Source: Stenotrophomonas raiganjensis (SeqCode) (GTDB lineage: Bacteria; Pseudomonadota; Gammaproteobacteria; Xanthomonadales; Xanthomonadaceae). From it: a stretch of DNA of 64,000 nt. Shown piece by piece: positions 3,516 to 19,983 of the stretch (position 1 is its first letter; every line of letters starts with the position of its first letter). Position numbers and translations under genes: made by a program. The stretch lies in the NCBI RefSeq assembly GCF_030658505.1, contig NZ_JAUTXR010000178.1:1-64000 (forward strand), in the 5' to 3' direction. The notes below the pieces were generated by a model that saw only the letters and a program-made list of their open reading frames with translations, was not told where the DNA came from and ran no database searches.

Positions 3516-3581
3516 GCGGAAACGCGCACTCCTTGCTGGAACCGTTCGGGGGCCGGCGGCACCAACACCACCGGCACGATG

Positions 3582-4673: not shown

Positions 4674-6472
4674 CGGACGATCTCCTCCCCGCTGTCGCCG
4701 GAAACCAGCACCAGTCGGGTAAAGCTGTTGGCATGCACGTAGAGTGCGAAGAAGTGGTCCATCACCTGGGCGAAGGCGGCCACACCGGTGCCCACGAAAT
4801 GGGCTTCATTGATCGTCAGGCGGATCTCCAGGCCGCGCACCACCGAGGCGAACTGGCGGCCGTGCATCCAGGTGGTCACCGGCGTCTGCTGCAGCTCGAG
4901 GATGCCGTCGATCTGCCGCGCCGAGACGTTGCTGCCGGACAGGTCGTACAGGCGCAGCATCTCCTTCAGCGCAGGCAGGCCACTGGCGGTCAGCGACAAC
5001 TGGTTCAACGACAGATGCGAGATCAGGCGCCACTGGGCGTTGCGGCCGTGACGGAAACGCAGCGGCTTGGTCGGCTTGCGCAGCAGGCTGATCGCCTTGG
5101 CCGGACTGCCACCTTCGATGCTCAGGTCACCGCCCGCCACACCGAAGGCCAGCTGGTTGGGCAGGTCCCGGTTGTTGCAGGTCAGTTCCAGGCTGACCGT
5201 ATCGGTCTGCGGCAGCACCGGGTTGAATGACAGGTCGACGAAGCTGATCTCGGTCTCGAAGCCCGGGCTCTGCCGCGCCACGTCCTCGTCACGGCGCGCC
5301 ACCCAGTACTGACCGGTGCGCTCGGGGTCTTCCCCGTGATGCAGCGAATAGAACGGGCGGAAGGCCTGGATCAGCTCACCCTGCGGGGTCTGCCGGATGC
5401 GATGCACCGAATCGATTGAGTGCACTTCATAGGCGAACGCGCGGCGGGCATCGGCCAGCACCGGGTAGTTCACCGTACGATGGGTGACACGGATCGGCTC
5501 GCCACTGGTGCGGAACAGATTGACGATGGGCGTGCACCCCAACCGCACGTTGTGCACACCCAGCTCGTCCAGCACCATCGTGTTGCCACGGTCCTGGCCG
5601 TGCGCCTGCAGCACCAGATGCAGGGTGAAACGGCGGCTGGCACCTGCCGTCACCGAGGGCAGGTGCAGGTCGACGAAGCCGAACTTTTCCGGATAGGCGA
5701 ACAGCTCGGTCAGCAGGCGATAGGCAGGATGCGAACGCGCCGGGAAATCGATCAGCGCTTCGTCATCGGCAAACCCGACCGCGCTCAGCGGCACCTTGTC
5801 GAGGCGGCGCCAGCGGCCATCTCCGTCGGACTCGACGTATGCCGCCTTCACCCCCAGCATCAGCGCATCACGCAGGGCCGCGCGCACCGAGGGCTCGCCA
5901 TCGAGGAACAGGCGCAGGTGATCGGTTCCCAACTGGTGGAAACCCAGCTGATCGGACAGCAGCTGGAACCCCATCGAGATCTGGCCTCCGGTTCCGGCCG
6001 GCAGCGTCGTGGCCATCGGTGCATCCGCCACACTGCGGTAGACCACCTGCTGCACGCCGATCGGCGCGAGCACGACGTCGTAGGCAGTGCGGAACTCGCA
6101 CGGTACGCCACGCACCGGCCGGCTCTGCAGGGCGGTGCCGCGTGGCACGCGCACCGGCGCACTCAGCTTGGATGCCACCCCTTCCAGGTCGAAATGGGCA
6201 ATCGAACAGGACGGGAACGGCCGCAGGTAGTGCGGATAAAGCACGTCCAGCAGCGCGTCGGTGAATTCGGGATAGTCATCTTCGATGCGCTTGGACACGC
6301 GCGCACTCAGCAGCGCGAAGGCCTCGATCAGGCGCTCGACATGCGGATCCTGGCTGCCCTCGGCGGAGAGCTGCAGGCGCCCGGCAATCTTCGGGTAGCG
6401 CTCGGCGAACTCGCGCCCGTAACGGCGAAGGTAGCCAAGCTCGCGTTCGTAGTAAGGCAGCAGGTCCTGCAT
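4637..6472 (-). CDS. tssF: T6SS baseplate protein TssF
   Basis: A 611-residue TssF/VasA/ImpG-family protein. The start MQDLLPYYERELGYLRRYG and the following AERYPKIAGRL are the family's hallmark N-terminus. TssF is the main wedge protein of the baseplate and binds TssG. The start codon shares a base with the tssE stop (TGATG), and the 3' end overlaps tssG by 37 bases, so tssE-F-G is a tightly coupled unit. Length and composition are ordinary for the family. Confidence 0.96.
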   Translation of the reverse strand: MQDLLPYYERELGYLRRYGREFAERYPKIAGRLQLSAEGSQDPHVERLIEAFALLSARVSKRIEDDYPEFTDALLDVLYPHYLRPFPSCSIAHFDLEGVASKLSAPVRVPRGTALQSRPVRGVPCEFRTAYDVVLAPIGVQQVVYRSVADAPMATTLPAGTGGQISMGFQLLSDQLGFHQLGTDHLRLFLDGEPSVRAALRDALMLGVKAAYVESDGDGRWRRLDKVPLSAVGFADDEALIDFPARSHPAYRLLTELFAYPEKFGFVDLHLPSVTAGASRRFTLHLVLQAHGQDRGNTMVLDELGVHNVRLGCTPIVNLFRTSGEPIRVTHRTVNYPVLADARRAFAYEVHSIDSVHRIRQTPQGELIQAFRPFYSLHHGEDPERTGQYWVARRDEDVARQSPGFETEISFVDLSFNPVLPQTDTVSLELTCNNRDLPNQLAFGVAGGDLSIEGGSPAKAISLLRKPTKPLRFRHGRNAQWRLISHLSLNQLSLTASGLPALKEMLRLYDLSGSNVSARQIDGILELQQTPVTTWMHGRQFASVVRGLEIRLTINEAHFVGTGVAAFAQVMDHFFALYVHANSFTRLVLVSGDSGEEIVRCPARSGESILA

Positions 6473-6960
6473 CAGGCGGCCTGCGTGCGGCGTGCGCGGG
6501 TGACCTGGTACTGCAGGGTCGAGGGTTGCAGCATCGCGTCGAAGCTGACCGGCTCGCGTGCAGGCTCCAGGTCGAGCAGCGCATGGATGGTGAAATGCAG
6601 CCCACCGGCGAACTGGTTGCCCGCGTCCAGATGGACATTGACGTTGCGCAGGCGGCGCTCATGGCGCGCCACGGCCTGCTCCAGCGAGCGGCAGATGGCG
6701 GCACGATCGTAGGCGTTGGCCAGGCTCATCGCGGAGAAGTCCGCCAACCCGTAAGTCAGCAGCGATTGCCGGCAATTGGGGAATTCCTTCATGTCGCCTT
6801 CCTGGAACGCGGCGCGCGAGTTCAACAGCCCCTCCAGGTCGCGGGCGATGGATTCCTTGTACTGCTCCAGCGAGACGGACTTGAATACCGGCCCGGCGCC
6901 CGATTGCTTGGGGGCGTCGTCGAACAGTTTTTCCAGCAGGCTGGGTTCGAGTCCCTTCAT
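6472..6960 (-). CDS. tssE: T6SS baseplate protein TssE (gp25-like)
   Basis: A 162-residue gp25-like lysozyme-family protein, the baseplate component that nucleates the sheath. The N-terminus MKGLEPSLLEKLFDD and the central LLNSRAAFQEGDMKEFPNC followed by LLTYGLADF match the TssE pattern. I chose the ATG that begins MKGLEPSLL because family members usually start near this motif; a GTG four codons upstream (6972) is possible. The stop overlaps the tssF start by one base. It is separated from hcp by about 125 bases holding a strong hairpin. Confidence 0.93.
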   Translation of the reverse strand: MKGLEPSLLEKLFDDAPKQSGAGPVFKSVSLEQYKESIARDLEGLLNSRAAFQEGDMKEFPNCRQSLLTYGLADFSAMSLANAYDRAAICRSLEQAVARHERRLRNVNVHLDAGNQFAGGLHFTIHALLDLEPAREPVSFDAMLQPSTLQYQVTRARRTQAA

Positions 6961-7047
6961 TGGTCGATCCACTCAGGTTCGGCATCCGTGCGGGCGGCAG
7001 CGGTGCAGCAATGGCAAGGCCGTTCCTGGCCCTGCCCGGCGATCAGA

Positions 7048-7076
7048 CTGCGATGGCGCACGAGGCGCCATCGCAG
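7048..7076 (-). terminator. Hairpin just downstream of hcp, probable attenuator
   Basis: A perfect 12-base-pair stem (CTGCGATGGCGC paired with GCGCCATCGCAG) closes a 5-base loop. It lies 11 bases after the hcp stop and before tssE. There is no T-run after it on the minus strand, so it may act as a partial terminator or as an RNA-stabilising 3' end rather than a full stop. This would let Hcp be made in excess over the baseplate genes, in line with the large number of Hcp copies per tube. Confidence 0.6.
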
Positions 7077-7086
7077 CGACACAACA

Positions 7087-7584
7087 TCACACGGTGTAGT
7101 TCGGGATGTTCTTGGTTGCGCTCCACTGCGCCACGGTCTTGCCACCAACTCCGCCTTCCGGCTTCTGCTGCTGGTAAGTCCACTTGATGGCGCCGAAGCT
7201 CAACTGAACAACTTCCTGCGGCATGCCTTCCTTGTCCACGGTCGTGGTGACGCGGTGGACCAGCACGTTCAGCAGCTCGACCGTGTAGTAATTGATCGCG
7301 TTGCCGTCCTTGTCGGCGCGCATGAACTGGATCTGCGCCTTCGGGAAGGTGGTGCCGTTGGAGGCGGCCTGGTTGAGGGCCGTGGAGGCGAGGTCGATCG
7401 ACTTGGTGATTTCGATCGGGGACAGGTTCACGCGGGCTGCAGTGGTGCCGCCGGAGGTCGACGCGGTGGCCGAACGCGGCTGCAACAGATCCTGCGAGAA
7501 CGACTGGATTTCGATCCAGTCCTTGTGCTTGTCGTCGTGCGACTCGCCCTTGATGGTGTCAATCGAGAGGAAAGCGTGCTGCAT
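7087..7584 (-). CDS. hcp: T6SS tube protein Hcp (TssD)
   Basis: A 165-residue Hcp-family protein that stacks as hexamer rings to form the inner tube and is secreted. Family features are the start MQHAFLSIDTIKGES, the HKDWIEIQSFS motif, and the C-terminal VVQLSFGAIKWTYQQQ region. A Ser/Thr/Gly-rich loop (ATASTSGGTTAARV) follows the first strands. An AGGAG site precedes the ATG by a normal distance. It sits between tssC and tssE, with about 145 bases upstream and a hairpin downstream, so it may have its own expression level. Confidence 0.96.
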   Translation of the reverse strand: MQHAFLSIDTIKGESHDDKHKDWIEIQSFSQDLLQPRSATASTSGGTTAARVNLSPIEITKSIDLASTALNQAASNGTTFPKAQIQFMRADKDGNAINYYTVELLNVLVHRVTTTVDKEGMPQEVVQLSFGAIKWTYQQQKPEGGVGGKTVAQWSATKNIPNYTV

Positions 7585-7730
7585 ATCTGGTCTCCTAAAT
7601 TCCGTTCTTCCGTGAGATTTGATGTGCCAGGCGCGGGCCTGGCGGTTAAGGGGGGCTACGCCCTCTTGAAATAAGCGTCACTGCAATCCGGGGAGCGGAC
7701 TCCCCTGGACGCTTCAGTTACAGCAAATCG

Positions 7731-9221
7731 TTACGACTTTTTCGCGGACGCCGGCAGTTCGGCGACCAGACGCAACGAAACAGACAGCTCATCGAGCTGG
7801 AAATGCGGCCTGATGAAGGCCACCGCGCGGTAGACACCGGGCTTGCCCGGCACCTCCGAAACCTGCACAGAGGCTTCACGCAGCGGGAACTGCGCCTTGG
7901 CTTCCTGCGAAGCGTTGTCGTCCAGCAATACGTACTGGGCGATCCAACGGTTCAGGAATTCCTCGACGTTGCCCGCCGAAGCGAAGCTGCCGATCTTCTC
8001 GCGCATCATCGCCTTGAGGTAATGGGCGATACGCGAGACCGCGAAGATGTACTGCAGCTGGGCAGACAGGATCGCGTTGGCATTGGCCGAATCGGTGTTG
8101 TACTTCTTCGGCTTCTGTGCCGACTGTGCGCCGAAGAACGCGGCGTAGTCGGTATTCTTGCAGTGCACCAGCGGCATGAAGCCGAGGTCACTGAGTTCCT
8201 TCTCACGACGGTCGGTGATGGCCACCTCGGTCGGGCACTTCAGCGCCACTTCGCCGTCGTCGGTACGGAAGGTATGGGTCGGCAGGTCCTCGACCAGGCC
8301 GCCACCTTCCACGCCGCGGATCGCTGCGCACCAGCCAAAGCTCTCGAACGCCTGGGTCAGCCGGGCGCCCATCGCGTAGGCGGTGTTGCACCACAGGAAC
8401 TTGCTGTGGTCGGCCGCTTCGATCTCTTCGACGAAGTTGAAACCCTCGACAGTGGTGCCGTCCTTCGGGTTGTACGGCAGGCGCCCCAGGAAGCGCGGCA
8501 TGGTCAGGCCGACGTAGCGGCTGTCCTCGCTCTCGCGGAACGACTTCCACTTGGCGTATTCGACCGTGTCGAACACCTTGGCCAGGTCGCGCGGCTTGCC
8601 CAGGTCGGTGAACGTCTCCAGGCCGAACATGCCTTCGCTGGCGGCGGAGATGAACGGCGCGTGCGCGGCAGCGGCGACGTGCGACATCTGCTCGATGAAG
8701 TACATGTCCTCCGGCTGGCGGCCAAGGAAATAGTCACCGATCAGGGCGCCGAACGGCGCACCACCGAAGGTGCCGAATTCCTCTTCATAGACCTTCTTGA
8801 ACAGCGCGCTCTGGTCGAAATCGATGGCCGACTTGAAGTCCTTGACCAGATCCTTCTGCGGCGAATTGAAGACCTTGATCTTCATGTTCGGGCCGGTGGA
8901 GGTCTGCTGGCACAGGTAGTGCAGGCCCCGCCAGCTGCCTTCCAGCTTCTGGAAGGCTTCCGCATGCATGACCGCGCTGAGCTGCTCGGAAATGATCCGG
9001 TCGATCTCGGCGATGCGTGCATCAAGGGTGAGGTTGAGGTTGTCGGAGACCACCACGGTACCGTCCAGGACTTCCTTCGCCAGCGCGGCGATGATGTCCT
9101 TGGCACGATCATGTTCGGTCTGCGACTTGGCGACCTTGCTCTTCTCGACGATCTGGTCGAGCAGGCCCACCTCTTCGGCCACGGCGGCCTGGGTGGCCAG
9201 TTGGCTGGCTTCGGCTGACAT
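7731..9221 (-). CDS. tssC: T6SS contractile sheath large subunit TssC (VipB)
   Basis: A 496-residue TssC/VipB/EvpB-family protein. Recognisable segments are LEGSWRGLHYLCQQTSTGPN near residue 90, FGALIGDYFLGRQPEDM, FLGRLPYNPKDGTTVEGFNF, and a C-terminal PHFQLDELSVSLRLVAELP. With TssB it forms the contractile sheath around the Hcp tube. The start follows the tssB stop by 3 bases, and its AAGGAGG ribosome site lies within the last tssB codons, so the two are made together. Length is typical. Confidence 0.97.
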   Translation of the reverse strand: MSAEASQLATQAAVAEEVGLLDQIVEKSKVAKSQTEHDRAKDIIAALAKEVLDGTVVVSDNLNLTLDARIAEIDRIISEQLSAVMHAEAFQKLEGSWRGLHYLCQQTSTGPNMKIKVFNSPQKDLVKDFKSAIDFDQSALFKKVYEEEFGTFGGAPFGALIGDYFLGRQPEDMYFIEQMSHVAAAAHAPFISAASEGMFGLETFTDLGKPRDLAKVFDTVEYAKWKSFRESEDSRYVGLTMPRFLGRLPYNPKDGTTVEGFNFVEEIEAADHSKFLWCNTAYAMGARLTQAFESFGWCAAIRGVEGGGLVEDLPTHTFRTDDGEVALKCPTEVAITDRREKELSDLGFMPLVHCKNTDYAAFFGAQSAQKPKKYNTDSANANAILSAQLQYIFAVSRIAHYLKAMMREKIGSFASAGNVEEFLNRWIAQYVLLDDNASQEAKAQFPLREASVQVSEVPGKPGVYRAVAFIRPHFQLDELSVSLRLVAELPASAKKS

Positions 9222-9224
9222 CGA

Positions 9225-9725
9225 TCAGTCCTCCTTGGTCACGCCGAGCTTCTTCAGCTGCTCGGTGTTGTTGAGCACATCGGTCAACAGGTCTTCCAGC
9301 TTCTCGTTGCCCGCCAGCTTGTTGCGAAGATCGGCCAGCTTGGTGCGCGACTCAAGCAGGCGGCGCAGCGGCTCGATCTGCTGGACCACCGCCTCGGGAC
9401 GGAAGTCGTCGATGGAATTGAACTTCAGCTCGACGCCGAACTCGCCCCCTTCGTCGCTGATCTTGTTCGGCACGCGATAGACCGCGCGCGGCGCAACGCC
9501 TTCCATCACTTCATCGAAGTTGTCCAGATCGACGTTGACGAACTTGCGATCCTTGACCTTCGGCAGCGGCTGTTCCGGGTTGCCGCTGAAATCGCCCATC
9601 ACGCCGACCACGAACGGCAGTTCCTTCTGCTCGATCGCGTCACCCTTCTCCACGTCGTAGGTGAGCTGGACGCGCGGCGGGCGGATCTTCTGCAGCCGCT
9701 TCTGGATGCTTTCCTTCTTGGCCAT
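9225..9725 (-). CDS. tssB: T6SS contractile sheath small subunit TssB (VipA)
   Basis: A 166-residue TssB/VipA/ImpB-family protein. The start MAKKESIQKRLQKIRPPRVQ, the ELPFVVGVMGDFSG motif and the DRKFVNVDLDNFDEVM segment are characteristic. The C-terminal region (LLESRTKLADLRNKLAGN) is the helical part that interacts with TssC and ClpV in studied systems. It is immediately upstream of tssC and 30 bases downstream of the TPR lipoprotein gene. Confidence 0.97.
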   Translation of the reverse strand: MAKKESIQKRLQKIRPPRVQLTYDVEKGDAIEQKELPFVVGVMGDFSGNPEQPLPKVKDRKFVNVDLDNFDEVMEGVAPRAVYRVPNKISDEGGEFGVELKFNSIDDFRPEAVVQQIEPLRRLLESRTKLADLRNKLAGNEKLEDLLTDVLNNTEQLKKLGVTKED

Positions 9726-9755
9726 GAGTGTCTCCTGACTGGGGCCGGTTCCGGA

Positions 9756-10379
9756 TCAGTTGCCGATGTTCTGGAACGGATCGGAGGTGTTCGAGCGGGC
9801 AGCGGGCTTGGCCGGCTGCGTCGCGGCGGGCTGGGCGGCAGCGGCGGGAGCCGCGGCACGGCCGGCACGGGCGCGGCTGCGCGGCTTGGGCTTGGGCGTC
9901 GGGTCGAGAATGGCGTCACCCATGGTGTTGCGCAGGGTGGTGGCCAGGGTCTGGGCTTCCTTGCGTGCGGTGTCCGACGCCAGTGCGCCACGGCCCTGCA
10001 GGCGGGTCAGCGACTGGTTGGCGACACGGAAGCCGGCGACGGTGATCACACCATCGGCCACCAGATCATTGGGATCGCGCTGGAGTACTTCCTCGGCTGC
10101 GACGATCGCGCGGGCGTACTGGCCCTGGTCGAACTGCAGCTGTGCGATGCGTACCCACGGCTCCTTGCGCGTCGGGTCGGCCTTGGCCGCCAGTTCGAAC
10201 GCACTGATCGCGGCATCGGCGCCGCCAGTGGTGACCTGTGCTTCGGCGTTGCTCAGCGTCGTTTCGAACGGCACGACCTCGGCCTTCTTCGGCGCCGATG
10301 AGCAGGCCGCCAGGCCCGACAGCAACATCAGCGCGAACATCGGCCGGTACACAGCCTTCCCCATTGCCTTCACTTCCAT
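9756..10379 (-). CDS. TPR lipoprotein at the head of the T6SS minus-strand operon
   Basis: A 207-residue protein with a lipoprotein signal peptide ending in the lipobox LSGLAAC, then about 100 residues resembling tetratricopeptide repeats (AISAFELAAKADPTRKEPWV and QLQFDQGQYARAIVAAEEVL). The tail is rich in Ala, Pro and Arg (PKPKPRSRARAGR) and looks disordered. It is predicted to sit in the outer membrane facing the periplasm. It is the first gene of the tssBC operon and divergent from tssJ, so a role in T6SS assembly is likely but not shown. A second in-frame ATG five codons in (10364) is an alternative start. Confidence 0.8.
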   Translation of the reverse strand: MEVKAMGKAVYRPMFALMLLSGLAACSSAPKKAEVVPFETTLSNAEAQVTTGGADAAISAFELAAKADPTRKEPWVRIAQLQFDQGQYARAIVAAEEVLQRDPNDLVADGVITVAGFRVANQSLTRLQGRGALASDTARKEAQTLATTLRNTMGDAILDPTPKPKPRSRARAGRAAAPAAAAQPAATQPAKPAARSNTSDPFQNIGN

Positions 10380-10618
10380 AGTGGTCCCTCGTCGAAATTA
10401 GTTCCTCAAGGAAGCCGAATCTCCGCCGATACAACGCACGGGATTCCTGCCCCTGTCGGCGGCAGTGTACATTCGCGAATACGCGTCGGTATAGTGAATT
10501 TCGTCAAGAATATGGCGAATTTGATAGACACAACCTTCACATCCCGATGTGATATCCGCGAGCAGAAAGTACTTATACGCTCAATTTTCGCCCTGCACCC
10601 CGAGCCGACCGACCGCAC
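10380..10618. promoter_or_regulatory. Divergent promoter region of the two T6SS operons
   Basis: A 239-base gene-free stretch between the TPR lipoprotein gene and tssJ. It is visibly richer in A/T than its neighbours, especially about 10480-10600, as expected for promoters firing both ways. I looked for sigma-70 and sigma-54 elements and found none that I would defend. It must hold the main control point of the T6SS. Confidence 0.5.
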
Positions 10619-11245
10619 ATGAATGCGCAACTTTTCTCATTCCATCGCGTGATATCCGTCACGATTTTGTCCCTGGTCATGTCCACGTCCCTGACCGGTT
10701 GCGCCAGTGACAGCAAGCTGGGCAAGGCAATGGACAAGACCCTCCAGGCCGTGGGCATCCGCGAGGACAAGCCCGAGGCGCCCCCCACCATTCCGCTGCG
10801 CCTGTACGCCGGCAGCAACCTCAACGCCGGCAACGACAAGCGGGCGACGGCCGCGGTGGTCAAGATCTACCACCTGCGCAGTCTGCAACGCTTCGAACAG
10901 GCTCCCTTCAACGCCTTCCTCGACCAGGCCGGCGAGCAGGCTGCACTCGGCGCGGACCTGTTGTCGGTCAACGAGGTCGTACTGACCCCAGGTGCCCGGC
11001 AGGAATTGTCCGAGCAGCTGAGTGAAGGAAGTGCAGTGCTCGGCGTTGTCGCCCTGTTCCGCGCTCCGGCCGAGAATCGCTGGCGGCTCGCGTTCGACAC
11101 CAAGGGCAAGACGCTTCCGCAGGATGGCGTCACCATCGGCGTCCACGCCTGTGCCCTGACCAGCGACAGCAAGGCGCTGTTGACACGCATTTCCGGTGAT
11201 CCAGGCAGTCTTGCATCCATCCGTTGTGCAGGCGCGAAGAAGTAG
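10619..11245 (+). CDS. tssJ: T6SS outer-membrane lipoprotein TssJ
   Basis: A 208-residue lipoprotein with signal peptide and lipobox (TSLTGC, Cys near residue 28). The mature part carries the TssJ/VasD pattern: PPTIPLRLYAGSNLNAGND, then VVKIYHLRSLQRFEQAPF and EVVLTPGARQEL. TssJ anchors the TssL-TssM membrane complex to the outer membrane. It is the first gene of the plus-strand T6SS block; tssK follows after about 195 bases. The first ATG gives a longer hydrophobic signal; a later ATG (10679) would leave it too short. Confidence 0.93.
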   Translation: MNAQLFSFHRVISVTILSLVMSTSLTGCASDSKLGKAMDKTLQAVGIREDKPEAPPTIPLRLYAGSNLNAGNDKRATAAVVKIYHLRSLQRFEQAPFNAFLDQAGEQAALGADLLSVNEVVLTPGARQELSEQLSEGSAVLGVVALFRAPAENRWRLAFDTKGKTLPQDGVTIGVHACALTSDSKALLTRISGDPGSLASIRCAGAKK

Positions 11246-11440
11246 CATCGCGCCGGAATTCTGGCACTCGAATTCATCGATGCGATAGTATCCTCAGCGC
11301 AACGATTGCCCTATTCGCTTGAATGTGGGATGCGATTCACACTTTCACATCACTGAAAGGGTATTCGCCACCGCGGGGCGCGAAAACGCCGGAACCAACC
11401 CGCATCGGCGACTTTTTCAAGCTATTTCCAAGGATTGAAC

Positions 11441-12792
11441 GTGGCTTATGTAAGCAGGATGTCGAAGGTTCTCTGGGGCGAAGGCCTGTTCCTGCGTCCC
11501 CAGCACTTCCAGCGCCAGGACGCCTATCACGAAGCACGGCTGCAGGATCTCTCGCAGACCCTGCACCCCTACGCATGGGGTGCGCGCCGGGTACGTTTCG
11601 ATCCACATGCACTTTCCGGTGGCACGCTGCGCCCGCTCGACCTGTCGGCGGTGTTTCCCGACGGCGAGACCTACGATGCGCCCGCGCACGACGGCCTGCC
11701 CGACGCAGTGTCCCTGCAGGAGCTGCCGCCGGGCGTGCAGACCACCGTGGTCTACCTGGCACTGCCGCTGCTGCGCGATGACGGCGCAAACTGCGCCGAC
11801 GCCGAAGGCACGGTCCTGGCCCGCTACCGCCAGGCCAACCGTGACACGCAGGACCTGTTCACCGATGCGGTCGAAGCCGAGCTCGCCTTCCTCAGCAAGG
11901 CCGTGAAGCTGCTTACCGACGATCAGCCGCGCGACGCGTACGCCACCGTGCCGATCGCACGCGTGCGCCGCACCTCCAGCGGCGGTTTCGAACTGGACGA
12001 TGAATTCATCCCCCCCTGCGCCCAGCTGCAGGCATCCCGTTCCTGCACCGCGAACTGCGGGCGGTACTCGATGCCTTGCAGGCGAAGGTCGATGCACTCT
12101 ATGGCCTGCATCGGCAGACCTCGCAGAACATCATCGAGTTCCGTTCCGGCGACATCGCCTCGTTCTGGCTGCTGCACACCATCAACAGCTCGTTCAGCGC
12201 ACTGGCCCACCTGCTGCACCATCCGCAGCTGCACCCCGAACGCCTGCACCAGGAACTGCTGCGCATGGCCGGCGCGCTGCTGACCTTCTCCAATGCCTAC
12301 CAGCTGGGCGACCTGCCGGTGTATCGCCACGACCAGCCGGAGGCTTCGTTCCGCAAGCTGCTGGAAATCGTGCGCGCGCTGCTGGATACCGTGATCTCCA
12401 CGCGTTATTTCAAGATCGCCCTGAACGAAGTCAAGCCGTCCTACCATCTCGGCCGGCTCGATTCGCAGCGCATCGACGGCAATGCCTCGTTCTACCTGTC
12501 CGTATCGGCCTCGCTGCCGGCGCAGGAGCTGATCCAGAGCGTGCCGGTGCGTTTCAAGGTGGGTGCGCCGGACGACGTCGAGAAGTGCGTGCTGTCCGCC
12601 CTGCCCGGCGTGAAGCTGACCCATGCCGCGCAGGTGCCGGCGGCGATCCCGGTGCGCCCGGGCAGTCATTACTTTGAACTCGACGCGCGCGGCGCGCTCT
12701 ATGAGCGCATGCTCAAGGCGCAGTCGTTGATGATCTACGTGCCGGCCGGCATTGCCGAGCTGAAGATGGAACTTGTGGCGGTGACCTCATGA
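11441..12792 (+). pseudogene. tssK: T6SS baseplate-membrane linker TssK, frameshifted
   Basis: TssK connects baseplate and membrane complex. The N-terminal half reads SKVLWGEGLFLRPQHFQRQD and continues in frame to DDEFIPPCAQLQAS, then the frame breaks at about 12035-12037. The rest of the protein resumes in the next frame as PFLHRELRAVLDALQ and runs to AELKMELVAVTS at 12792. One missing base explains it; with it restored the product is about 450 residues, the family's normal size. Both halves are otherwise intact with no other stops, so this is either a recent mutation or a sequencing error. I chose the GTG at 11441, with AAGGA seven bases upstream; ATG 11459 is an alternative. The 3' end overlaps tssL. 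Confidence 0.9.
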
Positions 12793-13583
12793 TGAATTCC
12801 CCCCTGCCCCCGACGCCGGGTCCGATGCCGTCGCTGACCGCCAATGGCGCGATGGTCAATCCGACGCCGCAGGCGGCCAATCCGCAGAGCCTGCAGGACC
12901 TGATGGCCGACGGCTTCTACCTGCTGCTGCTGCTCAAACGTGGCCAGCTGCCACACGATGCCGAGAGCTTCGTGCAGACGGTGCAGAAGTTCCTTGATGG
13001 CGTCGAACGCAATGCCATGCGCCTGGGCGTGGCCTCGGAAGACGTCTACGCCGCCAAGTACGCGTTCTGCGCGGCAGTGGACGAGGCCATCCTGTCCCAG
13101 CCTTCGCCGCTGCACGAAACATGGGAACGCAATCCGCTGCAGCTGCGCCTGTTCGGCGAGCATCTGGCCGGCGAACACTTCTTCGACCGCCTGGAGGAGC
13201 TCCGGCGCCAGGGCGCTGCGCGCCTGCCCTCGCTGGAGGTCTACCACTACTGCCTGCTGATGGGCTTCGAAGGCAAGTACCGACTGGAAGGTACCGAGAA
13301 GCTGGGCTACCTGACCGCCCGCCTCGGCGATGAGATCGTCTACCTGAAGGGCAAGCGGCACGGTTTCGCGCCGCATGCACTGCCCCCGGACAACGTCCGC
13401 CACAGCCTGCGCCGCGTGGTCCCGCTGTGGCTGCCGGCGGTGGTCGTGGGCTGTTTCGGCATCCTCGCCTTCTTCGGCATGCGCACCTACCTCGGCCACG
13501 AAACACGCCAGCAGCTGGCCGCCTACAACGACGTGGTGCAGATGCCCGAGCGCACCGCCCACATCACGATCACCCTGCCATGA
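12789..13583 (+). CDS. tssL: T6SS inner-membrane protein TssL (DotU-like, short form)
   Basis: A 264-residue IcmH/DotU-family protein. The family core is visible: NPQSLQDLMADGFYLLLLLK, then YAAKYAFCAAVDEAIL and HETWERNPLQLRLFGEH. A single membrane segment lies near the C-terminus (PLWLPAVVVGCFGILAFFG, about residues 210-232), as is usual for TssL, which hangs in the cytosol by its tail. There is no peptidoglycan-binding OmpA domain, so this is the short form. Its ATG overlaps the tssK stop (ATGATGA arrangement). Confidence 0.95.
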   Translation: MMNSPLPPTPGPMPSLTANGAMVNPTPQAANPQSLQDLMADGFYLLLLLKRGQLPHDAESFVQTVQKFLDGVERNAMRLGVASEDVYAAKYAFCAAVDEAILSQPSPLHETWERNPLQLRLFGEHLAGEHFFDRLEELRRQGAARLPSLEVYHYCLLMGFEGKYRLEGTEKLGYLTARLGDEIVYLKGKRHGFAPHALPPDNVRHSLRRVVPLWLPAVVVGCFGILAFFGMRTYLGHETRQQLAAYNDVVQMPERTAHITITLP

Positions 13584-13593
13584 GCCTGATGAT

Positions 13594-16500
13594 ATGGACA
13601 TCCCAAGCTCCTCACTGCTCGCATCCCTCGCTTCGCTGTCCCACCGCGAACGCCTGATCCAGCTGAAGGGGCCTGAGGAAGGCCTGGTCGTCGAACGCTT
13701 CGAAGGCATCGAATCAGTGTGCGGCGACAACCGCCTGCAGATCGACTGCCTGTCCACCGACGCGTTCCTGGACCTGGAGCCGTGGCTGGAACAGCCGCTG
13801 ACCCTGCAGCTGCGCCAGGCCGACGGTTCGCTGCGCCAGTGGCACGGGCTGTGTACCGAGGCGGCGCAGCTGGGCAGCGATGGCGGCCTGGCCCGCTATC
13901 GCCTGATCCTCGAACCGTGGACCGCGCTGCTGCGCCTGCGGCGCAATGCGGTGATCTTCCAGGATCTGGATACCCGCGCTATCTGCGAACAGATCTTCGC
14001 CGACTACCCGCAGGCCCTGTTCCGCTTCGACGTGCAGGCCGAGCTGCCGGCACGCGCGATCACCACCCAGTACCGCGAGACCGACTGGGCCTTCGTCACC
14101 CGGCTGCTGGCCGAAGCAGGCCTGGCCTGGCGCATCGAGCAGGCGCAGGACGACGATGCCGCACACACCCTGGTGGTGTTCGAGCCGGGCGCCGAGCTGC
14201 CCGACGCCGGCCGCGTGCGCTTCCATCGCGCCGACATGGCCGAGGCCAGCGACGGCATCACCGCCTTCGCCGAGCGCCAGCAGCTGGTGCCCAACGCCAG
14301 CACCGTGGCCAGCTGGCACAGCGAGCAGGTTGGTGCCGTGGCCGCGCACACCAGCGCCGATGCCGGCACCCTGCCCGCACTGGAAGTCTACGTGCAGCCG
14401 CGCGCCGGTCGATTCGCCCAGGCCGGCTGGGCCGACGCCGAAGCACAGGCACGGCTGGACGCGCTGCGCGTCGGCCAGGTGCTCTACAGTGGCAGCGGCA
14501 GCGAGCGCCAGCTGGCCGCTGGCAGCACCTTCACCCTGGCCCAGCACCCGCAGCACGAAGGCCAGGCCTTCCAGTTGCTGGCCGTGCAGCATTTGGCCCT
14601 GAACAACCTGGACCAAGGCATCGCCGAGCTGCTGGGCAGCACCGCGCTGGAGCGTGGCGCCTACCGCAACAGTTTCCTGGCCACTGGCAGCGGGGTGCCG
14701 CTGCGCGCCCTGCCGCAGGACCGGCCGACCCTGCATGGCCCGCAGACCGCACGCGTGGTGGGCATCGCCAACACCGCCGTGACCCCCAACCGCGAGCATC
14801 AGGTGCGCATCCAGTTCGGCTGGCAGCGCGGCAGCAGGCCCAATCCCGGCGGCCTGACCGACACCGGCAGCGCCCAGCCCGGACATGCTCCCGGCGACCA
14901 CACCAGTGGCAGCTGGGTGCCGGTGGCCGAGTGGGTGGCCGGCCCCAACTGGGGCACGGCCTTCCTGCCCCGCGTGGGCAGCGAGGTGCTGGTGGAATTC
15001 CTGCACGGCGACATCGACCAGCCGCGCATCACCGGCCAGCTCTACAACGGCGAGGTCGCCCCGCCCTTCGGCGGCGGCATCGACGAGAACGCACGCCACC
15101 CCGGCGTGCTCAGTGGCCTTCACACCCAGGCCCATGACGGTAGCGGCACCCAGCAATGGGTGATCGACGACACGCCCGGGCAGCTGCGCACGCGCCTGCA
15201 CAGCTCACTGGCCGACAGCCGGCTGGAGCTGGGCTACCTGATCGCGCACCAGGACACCGCCCGCGGCGCGCTGCGTGGCGAGGGCTTCGAACTGGCTACC
15301 CAGGGCTGGGGCAACGTGCATGCCGGCGAAGGCCTGCTGCTGTCGGCCAGCCTGCAGGAGCGCGCGGCGTCCACGGTGATGGACAACGCCAGCGTGGTGG
15401 CCCAGCTGAAGGGAGCCGAGCGCAGCCTGGAACAGATGCAGCAGACCCTGGCGCAGCAGCAGGTGCCGGGGCTGGCGGAGTTCGAGCGCACCAGGCAGCT
15501 GCGCGAGCAGATCGACCCGAAGGCGCAGGGCCGCTTCCAGGGCGATGTGAACGGGCAGAGCGCGATGAAACCCGGCAGCGATGGCCGCAGCCCCGGTGAC
15601 CAGCCGGTGGAACGGCTGGGCACGCCGCTGCTGCTGGCCGAGGCACCACACCATGTGGCCTGGACCACCCCGGCCAGCGCGGTGGCCTACGCCGGGCAGA
15701 ACCTGCAGATGACGGTGCAGCAGGACCTGCACGTCAGCGCCGGCGAGACCATCGCCACGGTGTCCGGCGAGCATGTCTCGCTGTTCGCGCAGAGCGGTCC
15801 GCTGCGGGTGATCGCCGCGCAGGGGCCGGTCAGCCTGCAGGCCCACGATGGCGAACTGGAACTGCTGAGCGACCAGGCCCTGACCATCACCGCCACCGAC
15901 GACCGCATCGACGTGCTTGCACAGACCAAGGTGGTGCTGCAGGCCGGCAGCAGTGCGATCACGCTGGAGGGCGGAAACATCACCTTCAGCTGCCCCGGCG
16001 AGTTCAAGGTCAAGGCGGGTGAGCATCCGTTCATGGGGGGCAGCAGCACACCCGCCAGCCTGCCACCATTGCCCGCCTTTACGATCAAGCCCGATCCGGG
16101 CCGCACCTTCGAGAGCACCTTCGCCTACGACCAGCTGCGCAGCATTGCCGCGCAGTCGACACCGGTCGAGTTCGTCATGATGATGGCGCCGACCTTCGGC
16201 TTCGATGTCCCGGCGCGGACCTACATGAAGCTGCAGGACGCACTGAAGGATGGCAGCCTGCAGGCGCCCGAACACAAGGTGATGGCCGGTGCGCCCTACC
16301 CGGCCGACTACGACAACAACAAGCGCATCATCCGCGTGAACAGCATGGCCGCTGACCGCGCAGCGACAACCATCGAAGCGTCACGCGAGCTGCTGGCCGT
16401 GTTGCTGCACGAATTCGGGCACCACGTCGACAACGTGCTGCGCAACGATCTGGCCGAGAAGGACGCGAACGGCAAGCCGACCCTCGCTGCGGACAGCGGC

Positions 16501-18180
16501 AAGGAAGAAGGCACGGCACTCGCCTACCGCCTGGCGTTCTTCGACCTGGAAGGTACGCACGAAACCGAATACGCGCAGTACACCTCTCCCGAGTACAACG
16601 GTGCGTTGAAGGTGAACTATGCCGAGGTGCAGGCGGCACTGAAGCAACAGGGGCCGGTCGCACAGGAGACCAACAAGAGCGAGGATGGACGCTACGAGGG
16701 GTTCAGCGCGGGTGATGGACAGAACCATGACAAGCGGCCGAACGAATCGTTCGGGCATCGGTCGATTGAGGCGGTGCTTAGGCATGCCGAATTCACTCCA
16801 AACCAGCGCCAAGCGATCTATTTTGGCAACTGGCTCCGGGACTACTCCCAACTGCTCGATCCCAAGATCGTACGCCCCGCAGGCCTACCGAAGAACCTCG
16901 GCAAATACCTCTCTCGCGCCGCCCTGACCCAAATTGTTGATGTCCTGGCTGGCAGTGAGTTCCACAATATACGGTACGGGAACCAAGCTGATTTTGGGGT
17001 GACGCCCGCACGCCTCGGGGTATACAAGCCAAGCGAGCATATCGACAACCCAAAGAACATCAAACCCGAGCCAGCAGACCCGAAAACCATCGACAAGGAC
17101 TTCGAGCCTTGGGTCACGCCCGGAAGTGCTCTTCTTCAGATAGACCCGAAAACCTCGATGAAGCGCTACATCATGCGCTCCAGAGACTTCATGTCTTCCG
17201 AACTGAACACAGCAATCTCAATGGGCAAGACACCCGATGGCATGCGCCATTTTGGCTCTGCCCTGCATGTTCTTGAGGACTACTTCGCACACTCCAATTT
17301 CTGCGAACTCAGCTTAAGAAAGCTCGGACACAGCACCGTGCTGCCTTGGACGTCAACTGCCAATTGCACTCATCGATACCCTGTGGTGACTGGGATGTTT
17401 GGCTCGACCGACGTCATCGCAAGCCTTGCCGAACCCATTGCTCACAAGCTCTTCGGCGTAGAAAGCTGGGAGTTCAAGGCGAGCGAGCCTGGCGACCGTT
17501 CCGACGGCGAGAAGATCATGCTGGTCCTTCTTTCCGAGCACAGCGATCAGCGTTACTACAGAGCTTTCCAGGATTTTCTCAAACTTCGAGACCGCATTGC
17601 ACGAATCCCTGGACATGAGTATCTGGAACGGGCTGGCTGGATCGCCAGCGCGCCAATGCGCGCGGTGCTCAACTGCTACAACTTCGTCTATCAACAACTC
17701 CTGCTGCTCGTAGGCAACAGCGTGGACGACGCGCAGACGATGTTCGATTCCGACCCAAACAAAAGTGGGTCAACCGACCCCAGCCATTCCCAGCTGGCAA
17801 AGGACCACGACGTTCATCCGCTGCATACATTGGCTGCTCAGCTGGCGCAACAGGCCGTCCTCCAGGTTGGGCAAGCAATGGCAGGGCGATGGCGCGGCGA
17901 TGCATCGCGTGATCCGGTCAAGATCGCACAGTCCTATCTGGTTCACCCCAATGATACGAACTGGCAGGACGCGACTGTTTCCGCTTGGGCCAAAGGCCAT
18001 ACTGCGGCGATACGGCGCGCGTCGTCCGCCACCGAACTCCAGCATCTGCACGAAGAACATGGAAAGCACGCATTGGAGAACATCCGTCGCGTGGGACGCT
18101 ACGGTTCCGATAGTTGGGACTACATCACTCGCTTCTATGAAGATCTGTTTGGCGAGAAGAATCAGGTTAAGACCAAATGA
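13594..18180 (+). CDS. vgrG: Evolved VgrG with metallopeptidase-like and HET-C-like C-terminal effector domains
   Basis: A 1,528-residue T6SS spike-effector. Residues 1 to about 500 are the VgrG gp27/gp5-like core (TQYRETDWAFVTRLLAEAGL; WVPVAEWVAGPNWGTAFLPR). About 690-815 is the repeat-rich DUF2345-type needle. Then comes a segment with HEFGHH at 939-944 (HExxH zinc motif; EEGTALAYR follows as a possible third-ligand region). After that a HET-C-like domain begins at FGNWLRDYSQ (1077) and includes HFGSALHVLEDYFAHSNFCE (1219 on). Base composition turns clearly more A/T-rich from about 16,990, suggesting the toxin tip was acquired separately. Starts 10 bases after tssL; the ATG at 13594 is the first that opens the VgrG sequence. 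The stop overlaps the next gene by 4 bases. Toxic activity is inferred, not shown. Confidence 0.93.
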   Translation: MDIPSSSLLASLASLSHRERLIQLKGPEEGLVVERFEGIESVCGDNRLQIDCLSTDAFLDLEPWLEQPLTLQLRQADGSLRQWHGLCTEAAQLGSDGGLARYRLILEPWTALLRLRRNAVIFQDLDTRAICEQIFADYPQALFRFDVQAELPARAITTQYRETDWAFVTRLLAEAGLAWRIEQAQDDDAAHTLVVFEPGAELPDAGRVRFHRADMAEASDGITAFAERQQLVPNASTVASWHSEQVGAVAAHTSADAGTLPALEVYVQPRAGRFAQAGWADAEAQARLDALRVGQVLYSGSGSERQLAAGSTFTLAQHPQHEGQAFQLLAVQHLALNNLDQGIAELLGSTALERGAYRNSFLATGSGVPLRALPQDRPTLHGPQTARVVGIANTAVTPNREHQVRIQFGWQRGSRPNPGGLTDTGSAQPGHAPGDHTSGSWVPVAEWVAGPNWGTAFLPRVGSEVLVEFLHGDIDQPRITGQLYNGEVAPPFGGGIDENARHPGVLSGLHTQAHDGSGTQQWVIDDTPGQLRTRLHSSLADSRLELGYLIAHQDTARGALRGEGFELATQGWGNVHAGEGLLLSASLQERAASTVMDNASVVAQLKGAERSLEQMQQTLAQQQVPGLAEFERTRQLREQIDPKAQGRFQGDVNGQSAMKPGSDGRSPGDQPVERLGTPLLLAEAPHHVAWTTPASAVAYAGQNLQMTVQQDLHVSAGETIATVSGEHVSLFAQSGPLRVIAAQGPVSLQAHDGELELLSDQALTITATDDRIDVLAQTKVVLQAGSSAITLEGGNITFSCPGEFKVKAGEHPFMGGSSTPASLPPLPAFTIKPDPGRTFESTFAYDQLRSIAAQSTPVEFVMMMAPTFGFDVPARTYMKLQDALKDGSLQAPEHKVMAGAPYPADYDNNKRIIRVNSMAADRAATTIEASRELLAVLLHEFGHHVDNVLRNDLAEKDANGKPTLAADSGKEEGTALAYRLAFFDLEGTHETEYAQYTSPEYNGALKVNYAEVQAALKQQGPVAQETNKSEDGRYEGFSAGDGQNHDKRPNESFGHRSIEAVLRHAEFTPNQRQAIYFGNWLRDYSQLLDPKIVRPAGLPKNLGKYLSRAALTQIVDVLAGSEFHNIRYGNQADFGVTPARLGVYKPSEHIDNPKNIKPEPADPKTIDKDFEPWVTPGSALLQIDPKTSMKRYIMRSRDFMSSELNTAISMGKTPDGMRHFGSALHVLEDYFAHSNFCELSLRKLGHSTVLPWTSTANCTHRYPVVTGMFGSTDVIASLAEPIAHKLFGVESWEFKASEPGDRSDGEKIMLVLLSEHSDQRYYRAFQDFLKLRDRIARIPGHEYLERAGWIASAPMRAVLNCYNFVYQQLLLLVGNSVDDAQTMFDSDPNKSGSTDPSHSQLAKDHDVHPLHTLAAQLAQQAVLQVGQAMAGRWRGDASRDPVKIAQSYLVHPNDTNWQDATVSAWAKGHTAAIRRASSATELQHLHEEHGKHALENIRRVGRYGSDSWDYITRFYEDLFGEKNQVKTK

Positions 18181-18773
18181 TCAAGGCACTCCTTCTTTCC
18201 ACCATCCTTCTTGTCCTTCCCGGCTGCCAGGCCGAATCATTAGATTCCAATAAACCACGGCAGCCGAGTGTCGAATTCGACAACGGAGATTTCTCAATCA
18301 ACGGTGGTCACGCGAGAATTGGGGCAACCACCAAAGAATGGATTTCCCTTCTGGGCGACAACTATAGATATGCCAATCCGGGCTCACCGGGCATGATGGT
18401 GTGGGACGAACTGGGCATCTTTATCTATACCGATCTCCCGATGAAGGATCGTGTCGATACTGTGGCCTTTGCCTTCAACACAGATCTAGATGAAGGCCCT
18501 GGATCATCAGACGCGCCAGCAACCATCAGACCCAGAAAGCCATTCCCAGGGCAGGTCGTCGTCAGTAGCACACGAATCAACGGCGACATGAAGATCAGTG
18601 ATATCCCAGCCGCCAGCAACATGATGCTTGAGGTGCACTGCAGCAAAGGCATCGCGATATGCACTACGAATCGCGTTGATGGCACTTCCCGTAACTACTC
18701 GATCTCCTTCACGGTTGACGAAAAGCAATATGAAAGCCTTCCCTACACTATAGAAATAGGCCGCGCACTTTAG
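18177..18773 (+). CDS. Lipoprotein, probable immunity protein for the VgrG effector
   Basis: A 198-residue protein with a lipoprotein signal (LLVLPGC, Cys near residue 17) and a mature part without membrane segments. Its ATG overlaps the vgrG stop (ATGA), the classic arrangement of effector and immunity. It shares the low-GC composition of the vgrG 3' end, so the two probably moved together. A periplasmic lipoprotein immunity protein would imply that the HET-C/peptidase effector acts in the periplasm. A shortened relative is encoded at 19118 (both have a GATTKEWISLLGDNYR / GAPADAWIAVLGSNYR segment). I do not recognise a named family; the immunity role is inference. Confidence 0.7.
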   Translation: MIKALLLSTILLVLPGCQAESLDSNKPRQPSVEFDNGDFSINGGHARIGATTKEWISLLGDNYRYANPGSPGMMVWDELGIFIYTDLPMKDRVDTVAFAFNTDLDEGPGSSDAPATIRPRKPFPGQVVVSSTRINGDMKISDIPAASNMMLEVHCSKGIAICTTNRVDGTSRNYSISFTVDEKQYESLPYTIEIGRAL

Positions 18774-18957: not shown

Positions 18958-19117
18958 ATGGCGGAACATTTGCGGCGCGACTACGCACTTGCTGCCACTT
19001 CTCTGAACCGCCTCACTGCTGCTGTCGGAATTGCTTCGCGCGCTCCTCAGATTGAGCACCTGCATGAAGAACGTGGAAAGCACGCACTGGAGAACATGCG
19101 ACATATAGAAAGTCAAG
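18958..19117 (+). pseudogene. Remnant of a second effector C-terminal tail
   Basis: An open stretch that lacks a proper start but encodes PQIEHLHEERGKHALENMRH at about 19040-19100. This closely matches ATELQHLHEEHGKHALENIR near the C-terminus of the VgrG effector (about 18030-18090), and the DNA is also clearly related over some 50 bases. It is immediately followed by a lipoprotein gene related to the immunity gene, in the same order as the intact pair. It is therefore best read as the 3' stump of a displaced toxin module. Confidence 0.65.
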
Positions 19118-19441
19118 ATGAACGCAAGACTCCTTCCCACGATAACGCTCTCATTGCTCTTCGCTGCATGCGGCCCCGCACCTCAGGATGAGGGAAAAGA
19201 GCAGAAGCCAGCGGCCGTTTTCGAGAACGGCTCTATCCTCATCGGCTCGCAGCGCGTTGAACTTGGCGCGCCCGCCGATGCATGGATTGCCGTCCTTGGT
19301 AGCAACTATCGCCAGGTGGAAGGCGACGAACCCTTCGGCAGCGAGCGCCAGAACGATCCTGCGCTGGCATCAGCTGCGGCGCCGTTGCGTGCGCACATCG
19401 ACAGCGTATGGGAAGCGATCAAGCGCGGGAGTTCGCCATGA
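19118..19441 (+). CDS. Shortened immunity-like lipoprotein paralogue
   Basis: A 107-residue product with a lipoprotein signal (LSLLFAAC) and a mature start related to the immunity gene at 18177: AAVFENGSILIGSQRVELGA versus PSVEFDNGDFSINGG, followed by AWIAVLGSNYR. After that point similarity stops and the protein ends about 90 residues early (AHIDSVWEAIKRGSSP). It is thus truncated or a fusion of two fragments. It may still be made, since it has a start and no internal stop, and its own end overlaps the next gene by ATGA. It could be an orphan immunity gene. Confidence 0.6.
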   Translation: MNARLLPTITLSLLFAACGPAPQDEGKEQKPAAVFENGSILIGSQRVELGAPADAWIAVLGSNYRQVEGDEPFGSERQNDPALASAAAPLRAHIDSVWEAIKRGSSP

Positions 19442-19983
19442 CCGCGCCATGGTGCCAGCGCCTGCATCCGCCCGTGCTCCTGCTGGTGCTTTCGGCTGCC
19501 GCAAACGCTGCCATCGCGCGCACGCCGCCGCCCAGTCCACTGCAACGCGCCTGCGCGGCCGACATCGAGGAACGTATCGAGCTGCGGTTCGCGGACGGCA
19601 GGCATGTAAGCGCCTGCGCACCTGGCGTCGGCGACGGCTGCGCGTACGGCAGCGGGCAGACCATGCTCGACGCTACGCCCGACCTCAACAACGATGGTCG
19701 CGCCGACGCGATCCTCACCCACTTCGGCAGCAGCTACGGTGACATCGACGTCACCCATAAACTGGTGCTGGCGCAGTGCCCGGACGGAACCTATGCGCGC
19801 CTGCTGGAGGGACGGTTCACCACGCTGGCCGCACCTCCGGCTCCGCATCCGGCGTGGCCGGCGCTGGAGGCATCGCGGGACTGCCCGGGCCGCCGGGAAA
19901 CGATCGCACTGCGCTTCGAGCGCGCTACCGCCCGCTATCATGGGCCGGATCACTTCGATCCTGACAATGCCTGTGCACCTTGA
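19438..19983 (+). CDS. Exported protein with an Asp-rich FG-GAP/VCBS-like segment
   Basis: A 181-residue protein with a signal peptide (LLLVLSAAANAAIA) and several cysteines in the mature part, suggesting disulphides in the periplasm. The segment DATPDLNNDGRADAILTHFG resembles the calcium-binding loop of FG-GAP/VCBS repeats. Its ATG overlaps the stop of the shortened immunity paralogue, and a GGGAG site stands 9-10 bases upstream, so it may be read through from the T6SS block. Function unknown; it could equally be a housekeeping periplasmic protein. Confidence 0.7.
   Translation: MTAPWCQRLHPPVLLLVLSAAANAAIARTPPPSPLQRACAADIEERIELRFADGRHVSACAPGVGDGCAYGSGQTMLDATPDLNNDGRADAILTHFGSSYGDIDVTHKLVLAQCPDGTYARLLEGRFTTLAAPPAPHPAWPALEASRDCPGRRETIALRFERATARYHGPDHFDPDNACAP

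Follow-up and report, generated by a model that had tools for sequence, protein, structure and literature searches.

A gene in a 64,000-nucleotide stretch of the Stenotrophomonas raiganjensis genome (contig NZ_JAUTXR010000178.1, positions 1 to 64,000; this whole stretch is termed the window) encodes a VgrG spike protein whose C-terminal tip consists of a segment with an HExxH motif followed by a HET-C domain. The HET-C domain is very probably an antibacterial toxin against which the producer is immunised, and the adjoining lipoprotein, a member of family DUF7738 (PF24880), is its likely antidote, which would be a new link between the two families. Across the strains compared at the sequence level, the lipoprotein changes with the HET-C domain and not with the HExxH segment. 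The best explanation as a whole appears to be an antibacterial evolved VgrG with a HET-C toxin, a DUF7738 antidote and an HExxH accessory protease, at a probability of roughly 0.6. The features concerned are:

13594–18180, plus strand: vgrG (tssI), encoding an evolved VgrG of 1,528 aa (TIGR03361, E-value = 3.1e-85)
13594–16041, plus strand: VgrG needle, residues 1–816 (Phage_GPD, Phage_base_V, T6SS_Vgr and DUF2345, from Pfam)
16060–16683, plus strand: zincin-like HExxH segment, residues about 823–1030 (conservation; weak fold matches to zinc peptidases)
16408–16425, plus strand: HEFGHH motif, residues 939–944 (motif reading)
16507–16509, plus strand: Glu 972, candidate third zinc ligand (in 24/24 HExxH sequences and 0/11 with a degenerate motif)
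16693–18177, plus strand: HET-C domain, residues about 1034–1528 (PF07217, E-value = 1.2e-44)
16780–17010, plus strand: HET-C block 1063–1139, which changes with the lipoprotein between the window and strain LMG 978 (sequence comparison)
17266–17292, plus strand: HxxxDxxxH (H1225, D1229, H1233), candidate metal site (44/44 sequences)
18177–18773, plus strand: DUF7738 lipoprotein of 198 aa, candidate cognate immunity gene (PF24880 match, adjacency, co-variation)

Translation from the ATG at 13594 to the stop at 18180 gives the 1,528 residues. Pfam places Phage_GPD at residues 44–338, Phage_base_V at 436–484, T6SS_Vgr at 513–617 and DUF2345 at 669–816, and the tip follows in the same open reading frame. 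A complete needle and an extra domain in one reading frame, inside a type VI secretion system (T6SS) cluster, constitute an evolved VgrG, as a preliminary description of this DNA had proposed; its coordinates for vgrG and for the lipoprotein (open reading frame 18177–18773) are also correct. That description had recognised HET-C from the motifs FGNWLRDYSQ (starting at residue 1077) and HFGSALHVLEDYFAHSNFCE (at residue 1219), and Pfam agrees: Het-C (PF07217) matches at residues 1037–1284 and in a second stretch, with 153.3 bits against a curated cut-off of 21, which is far beyond chance.

Conservation was assessed in 44 distinct HET-C sequences (exact duplicates removed; L007 is included, and L028, a weak match with no open reading frame carrying the motifs, is excluded). 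Residues H1055, D1083, H1149, D1151, H1225, D1229, H1233, H1398, D1404, H1408 and H1451 are invariant. PF07217 corresponds to het-c of Neurospora. In 10 of 12 members, comprising the window and relatives, the domain also touches VWA7_N (best E-value = 4.9e-5), a family named for a vertebrate protein. Tox-HET-C of the polymorphic toxins is the same family, and its motifs H, HxD and HxxxDxxxH, as given in the available part of a 2012 survey (PMC3482391), are found here in 44/44 sequences as H1055, H1149-x-D1151 and H1225-xxx-D1229-xxx-H1233. Podospora has a protein under this name too, but it is described as a glycolipid transfer protein (PMC10197012, available part).

Seven distinct Stenotrophomonas VgrG/lipoprotein pairs, giving 21 strain pairs, were used to follow co-variation. 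The distance between lipoproteins correlates with the distance between HET-C domains at r = 0.97; the needle and the HExxH segment, each at r = 0.64, are weaker as a basis of lipoprotein variation and were set aside. Within the four closest strains the lipoprotein correlation is 0.93 with HET-C, 0.99 with block 1063–1139 and -0.52 with the needle.

Pairwise alignments show where the change lies. The window and S. maltophilia SJTL3 have needles that are 99–100% identical and HExxH segments that are 98% identical; at about residue 1060 the DNA identity falls from 90–95% to 60–83%, similarity resumes at about window position 19313, and the two lipoproteins have 31.5% identity (62/197). The window tip shares 97% identity with the tip of S. 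maltophilia LMG 978 (and 99% with one from an uncultured Stenotrophomonas), and the HExxH segment of LMG 978 is without any amino acid difference from that of the window. Thirteen of the 20 differences from LMG 978 in residues 817–1528 fall inside HET-C block 1063–1139 (p = 4e-9), and the lipoproteins are 65.2% identical (129/198). In contrast, locus L026 shows 8 tip differences from the window, 1 of them in the block, and a lipoprotein with 99% identity (196/198). Since the block holds the invariant residues N1079, W1080 and D1083, it is reasonable to suppose that the lipoprotein makes contact near the active site.

The lipoprotein open reading frame overlaps the vgrG stop by four bases (ATGA). 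It matches DUF7738 with an E-value of 3.4e-12 and 47.2 bits (cut-off 24.6), and the DUF7738 profile matches all 15 aligned lipoproteins at E-values up to 1 (alignment A2: complete genes only, from the related loci retrieved and the window). The lipobox Cys is present in 15/15; in the window copy, Cys 17 is lipobox-like. A sequence search against a library of solved structures yielded two chance matches (best E-value = 0.083), and a Foldseek search with a model of the lipoprotein gave nothing under 0.001. The gene adjoins the toxin, co-occurs with it and co-varies with it, as an immunity gene does, and the product is predicted to be a periplasm-facing immunity protein, in keeping with the first proposal.

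The preliminary description had gone further, to a two-domain toxin neutralised by the lipoprotein. Its immunity component can be retained, but extending it to both domains claims more than the evidence supports: the lipoprotein varies together with HET-C and not with HExxH, and in 20 of 34 stand-alone relatives the HExxH motif is not intact, being degenerate, truncated or missing there. It is unlikely, with roughly the odds of one throw in five, that both domains are toxins, i.e. a periplasmic metallopeptidase like VgrG2b/Tpe1 and HET-C as a second, with one lipoprotein neutralising both. The HExxH segments are 98–100% identical where the lipoproteins are only 32% and 65% identical, unlike the target of an arms race, and it would be unusual for one lipoprotein to counter two domains that are unrelated. 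The pair has no other complete gene of immunity type beside it: the complete open reading frame that follows (19408–19983) lacks a Pfam match and, judged by eye, closely resembles one in genome G037, which is HET-C-negative.

For the HExxH segment of the window, Pfam gives no family at E-values up to 1; 2 of 17 relatives touch Zincin_1 (best E-value = 0.00097). Of the 44 sequences, 24 have an intact motif and 11 a degenerate one; in 1 it is truncated and in 8 it is missing. All 24 intact-motif sequences have Glu 972 and none of the 11 with a degenerate motif does, which suggests that it is the third zinc ligand; an HExxH motif with a conserved downstream Glu is the gluzincin pattern, and the metallopeptidase-like character first read from HEFGHH alone thereby gains a plausible ligand. 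The signature HExxHxxQ of the PVC-metallopeptidases is absent, with Asp at the Q position in 17/17.

On a HET-C tree, the degenerate forms make up one clade. Those without HExxH fall at two positions, one being L053 and the other a clade of seven joined by the truncated form. Intact versus not intact amounts to three changes on the tree; if the intact state is ancestral, HExxH would have been lost three times while HET-C stayed intact. The motif is intact in 10/10 immunity-linked sequences, compared with 14/34 of the others. The segment reads as an accessory part that matters in the T6SS setting, and an accessory role appears slightly better favoured than that of an independently immunised toxin.

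A sequence search with the HExxH segment against the solved-structure library yielded no match, and profiles A3 and A1 yielded none in that library either. A profile of 17 relatives found no solved chain up to an E-value of 10, the relation to VgrG2b/Tpe1-type peptidases being included in what was looked for. A second-look fold search listed zinc peptidases as weak matches to the HExxH part of the tip model.

The mature N-terminus of phospholipase C binds metal. The idea that HExxH cleavage creates such a metal-binding N-terminus on HET-C was dropped, as a working HExxH is wanting in 20/44 sequences.

HET-C also occurs outside VgrG. It was matched in 35/199 Pseudomonas genomes as proteins unfused to VgrG, in frames of about 520–770 residues; 30 loci were read, with 5 of the 35 matching genomes left out. 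A tblastn search with the lipoproteins found DUF7738 in none of the Pseudomonas stand-alone HET-C loci, which reach ~0.45–0.8 kb past the stop; the sole Pseudomonas locus with DUF7738, L037, came from a separate search. Many of the stand-alone genes lie, by eye, upstream of a dipeptide-binding-protein-like gene. Loci L006–L011, L036 and L044–L072 represent stand-alone HET-C in Pseudomonas and one Pantoea record, and no VgrG fusion or adjacent DUF7738 was seen in them.

The absence of DUF7738 beside stand-alone Pseudomonas HET-C in the loci read would fit a scheme in which immunity is directed at the HExxH protease as the toxin, HET-C being cargo that serves other ends, e.g. against fungi. The P. 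syringae gene phcA reportedly induces cell death in Neurospora, which would count for this scheme. A P. syringae HET-C protein is likewise reported to matter in the infection of fungal hyphae (PMC3482391, available part). The scheme is nevertheless very improbable: an intact HExxH is present in 14 of the 34 stand-alone proteins, yet these show no lipoprotein gene either, and the lipoprotein follows HET-C, not HExxH.

HET-C is found in 7/91 Stenotrophomonas genomes and the HExxH segment in the same 7/91, while the lipoprotein model matches 9/91, i.e. the 7 HET-C-positive genomes plus fragments in G037 and G080 (Fisher p = 4e-9 for co-occurrence, with fragments counted as presence and with strains that are related). 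A class-wide search of 369 genomes found HET-C in 2, only the window's own being above the cut-off, and no relatives were gained. In Enterovibrio calviensis (L012), DUF7738 comes after a VgrG that has both HExxH and HET-C; in another genus of the family (L034), after an HExxH-HET-C open reading frame separated from the needle; and in P. putida 700447 (L037), after a HET-C open reading frame at the edge of a contig. Two tandem DUF7738 genes are present at L033 8938–10103, in another genus of the family, where the contig end hides the partner.

The VgrG that follows tssL in G080 shares 90% identity up to residue 819, beyond which it carries another tip, with other downstream genes and a DUF7738 remnant. 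The G037 contig starts inside vgrG; residues 772–860 are matched at 65%, the rest of the open reading frame differs, and two DUF7738 remnants come after it. Because both vgrG genes carry other tips beside DUF7738 remnants, the whole tip is exchangeable. In two HET-C-negative Stenotrophomonas genomes, a vgrG of related needle with another tip, other downstream genes and DUF7738 remnants is seen at L091 2075–4531 and 9750–9998 and at L090 2–256, 3045–3410 and 4836–5171.

Further DUF7738 genes and scraps of toxin tips lie downstream of VgrG/lipoprotein pairs. Matches per genome, which include the cognate gene and some broken copies, number 8 in G084 (L026), 4 in G009 (L025), 2 each in G061, G087 and the window genome, and 1 each in G052 and G056. 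The orphan lipoproteins of L025 and L026 are 79–85% identical to cognate lipoproteins of other strains. This orphan-immunity array pattern argues for use against related bacteria. In the window, the corresponding remains (19015–19312) are just outside the region first described:

19015–19107, plus strand: fragment of a different HET-C toxin tip (61% to residues 1470–1500)
19118–19312, plus strand: start of a second DUF7738-like gene, cut at about 19312, which runs into downstream sequence (open reading frame 19118–19441)

The 107-aa open reading frame at 19118–19441 joins the DUF7738-like start to other sequence at about 19312, resembling the scar that deletion of an immunity array would leave.

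The vgrG gene is directly behind tssL, in the following cluster:

762–13583: T6SS core, with tssH, tssG, tssF, tssE, hcp, tssC, tssB and a TPR protein on the minus strand, and tssJ, tssK (two frames) and tssL on the plus strand

At 11435–12792 tssK consists of two overlapping open reading frames in different frames, where L002, L003, L004 and L005 have a single one. This is either a sequencing error in the 192-contig draft or a real lesion that would silence the T6SS.

Zn_dep_PLPC matches weakly in 1/12 HET-C members (E-value = 0.053), and a sequence search of HET-C against the solved-structure library gave two chance matches (best E-value = 0.35). A tip model of 706 residues, with HET-C folded as part of the whole tip, gave nothing under an E-value of 0.001 in Foldseek; its metal-site loops have a predicted local distance difference test score (pLDDT) under 50, and for the HET-C part the second-look fold search listed unrelated helical proteins. 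The 2012 survey predicted, at borderline significance, that HET-C is kin to zinc phospholipase C and S1-P1 nucleases (PMC3482391, available part). Phospholipase-like activity is given a little less than an even chance.

The same predicted fold would suit an S1-P1-like nuclease instead of a phospholipase (PMC3482391, available part), and the order of the conserved His/Asp motifs is compatible with P1 nucleases. A nuclease is nonetheless improbable: profile comparison gave no HET-C link to S1-P1 nucleases, and the antidote looks like a periplasm-facing lipoprotein, in a place where nucleic acid is not an obvious target. Where the antidote probably resides, a lipid is a better candidate target than a nucleic acid.

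The domains, their co-occurrence and co-variation, the cassette exchange and the conservation come from comparison of sequences; from these we infer antibacterial action, a periplasmic target, the binding site, enzyme activity and the role of the protease. In the proposed mechanism, the spike would deliver the two-part tip to the periplasm of a neighbouring cell. HET-C, a putative metal-dependent hydrolase and the actual toxin, would attack the target cell from the periplasmic side, with membrane phospholipid as the most likely substrate, in the manner of phospholipase C. The DUF7738 lipoprotein would sit in the periplasm of the producing cell and of its sister cells and block HET-C by binding around residues 1063–1139. 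The HExxH part may be a small zinc protease that aids HET-C by spike release, by maturation or by help in the target, and would not be what the lipoprotein recognises. Tip and lipoprotein are swapped between strains as a cassette, leaving orphan immunity genes and toxin scraps.

Several observations weigh against this mechanism. The co-variation is carried by only 7 strains in two closely related groups, and the pairs are non-independent; in the four closest strains the HExxH distance also correlates with the lipoprotein at r = 0.84, though on differences of 0–3%. The intact HExxH in all 10 immunity-linked sequences indicates that the protease matters there, perhaps as a further toxin. A simple lipobox pattern missed the LPGC of the window copy and matched most other copies. 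The phospholipase reading comes from the 2012 prediction and motif order; hhalign of HET-C to S1-P1 nucleases gave no support, with a probability of 0.2% (99.9% in a positive control of two distant nucleases against the remaining nucleases), and no phospholipase or nuclease is among the 50 fold-search rows listed for the tip. With its split tssK, the T6SS of the window strain may not fire as read.

Related systems are compared here from the available parts of the papers cited. An evolved VgrG4 with Het-C in S. maltophilia S25 and S377 was reported in 2026, its function given as unknown (PMC13055248). It has the same genus, main T6SS cluster and C-terminal HET-C, and probably represents the same locus as the window vgrG, where other strains bear other effectors; the part available names no HExxH segment, immunity family or co-variation. 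An evolved VgrG with HET-C is also known in Acinetobacter bereziniae (PMC6838775), but there LysM is reported, an HExxH segment is not named in the available text, and a possible antifungal role is suggested. The 2012 survey lists Tox-HET-C for type II secretion system (T2SS), T6SS and PVC export, with PVC-metallopeptidase as an associated protease; in the part available it lists no immunity family, and its HExxHxxQ differs from the motif found here (PMC3482391).

VgrG2b/Tpe1 with PA0261/Tpi1 (PMC6899460) is alike in having an HExxH zincin effector, which in VgrG2b is fused to VgrG and has a Glu as third ligand, and a periplasm-facing immunity protein. It differs in that HET-C is not named in the part available and the third ligand lies 48 residues past the first His, compared with 33 here. 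Orphan or homologous immunity genes behind an active pair, and displaced effectors, are described in T6SS arrays of Vibrio cholerae (PMC5361080), and S. rhizophila has an array of 12 immunity homologues (PMC13340143); the effectors in both are others. The preliminary description had suggested that the combination may be little described. For HET-C on a VgrG this does not hold, since it is in print for S. maltophilia (PMC13055248), and HET-C toxins with PVC-metallopeptidase appear in the 2012 survey (PMC3482391). For the pairing it does hold: the open-access literature searched yielded no description of an HExxH plus HET-C tip on a VgrG, or of its immunity family, and DUF7738 was not named there (subscription papers were not covered).

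Fungi employ the HET-C family in incompatibility, and the family extends to animals. A more far-reaching reading, unlikely to be right in all its parts, is that DUF7738 is the first recognised HET-C immunity family, a protein of BLIP-like fold that would plug the active site, with variants that map the contact to one block. HExxH would then be a built-in maturase freeing HET-C in the target. HET-C, common to fungal incompatibility proteins and vertebrate VWA7, would be a metal hydrolase that attacks membranes and descends from a bacterial ancestor specialised as an antibacterial weapon.

Of the two parts of this tip, the neighbouring lipoprotein tracks just one. If DUF7738 is the antidote, it would name an immunity family for a toxin class with none listed in the 2012 survey. 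A bacterial HET-C toxin together with its matched antidote, and natural pairs, two of them (window and LMG 978) differing chiefly in a single recombined block, would provide a direct route to the target and activity of HET-C.
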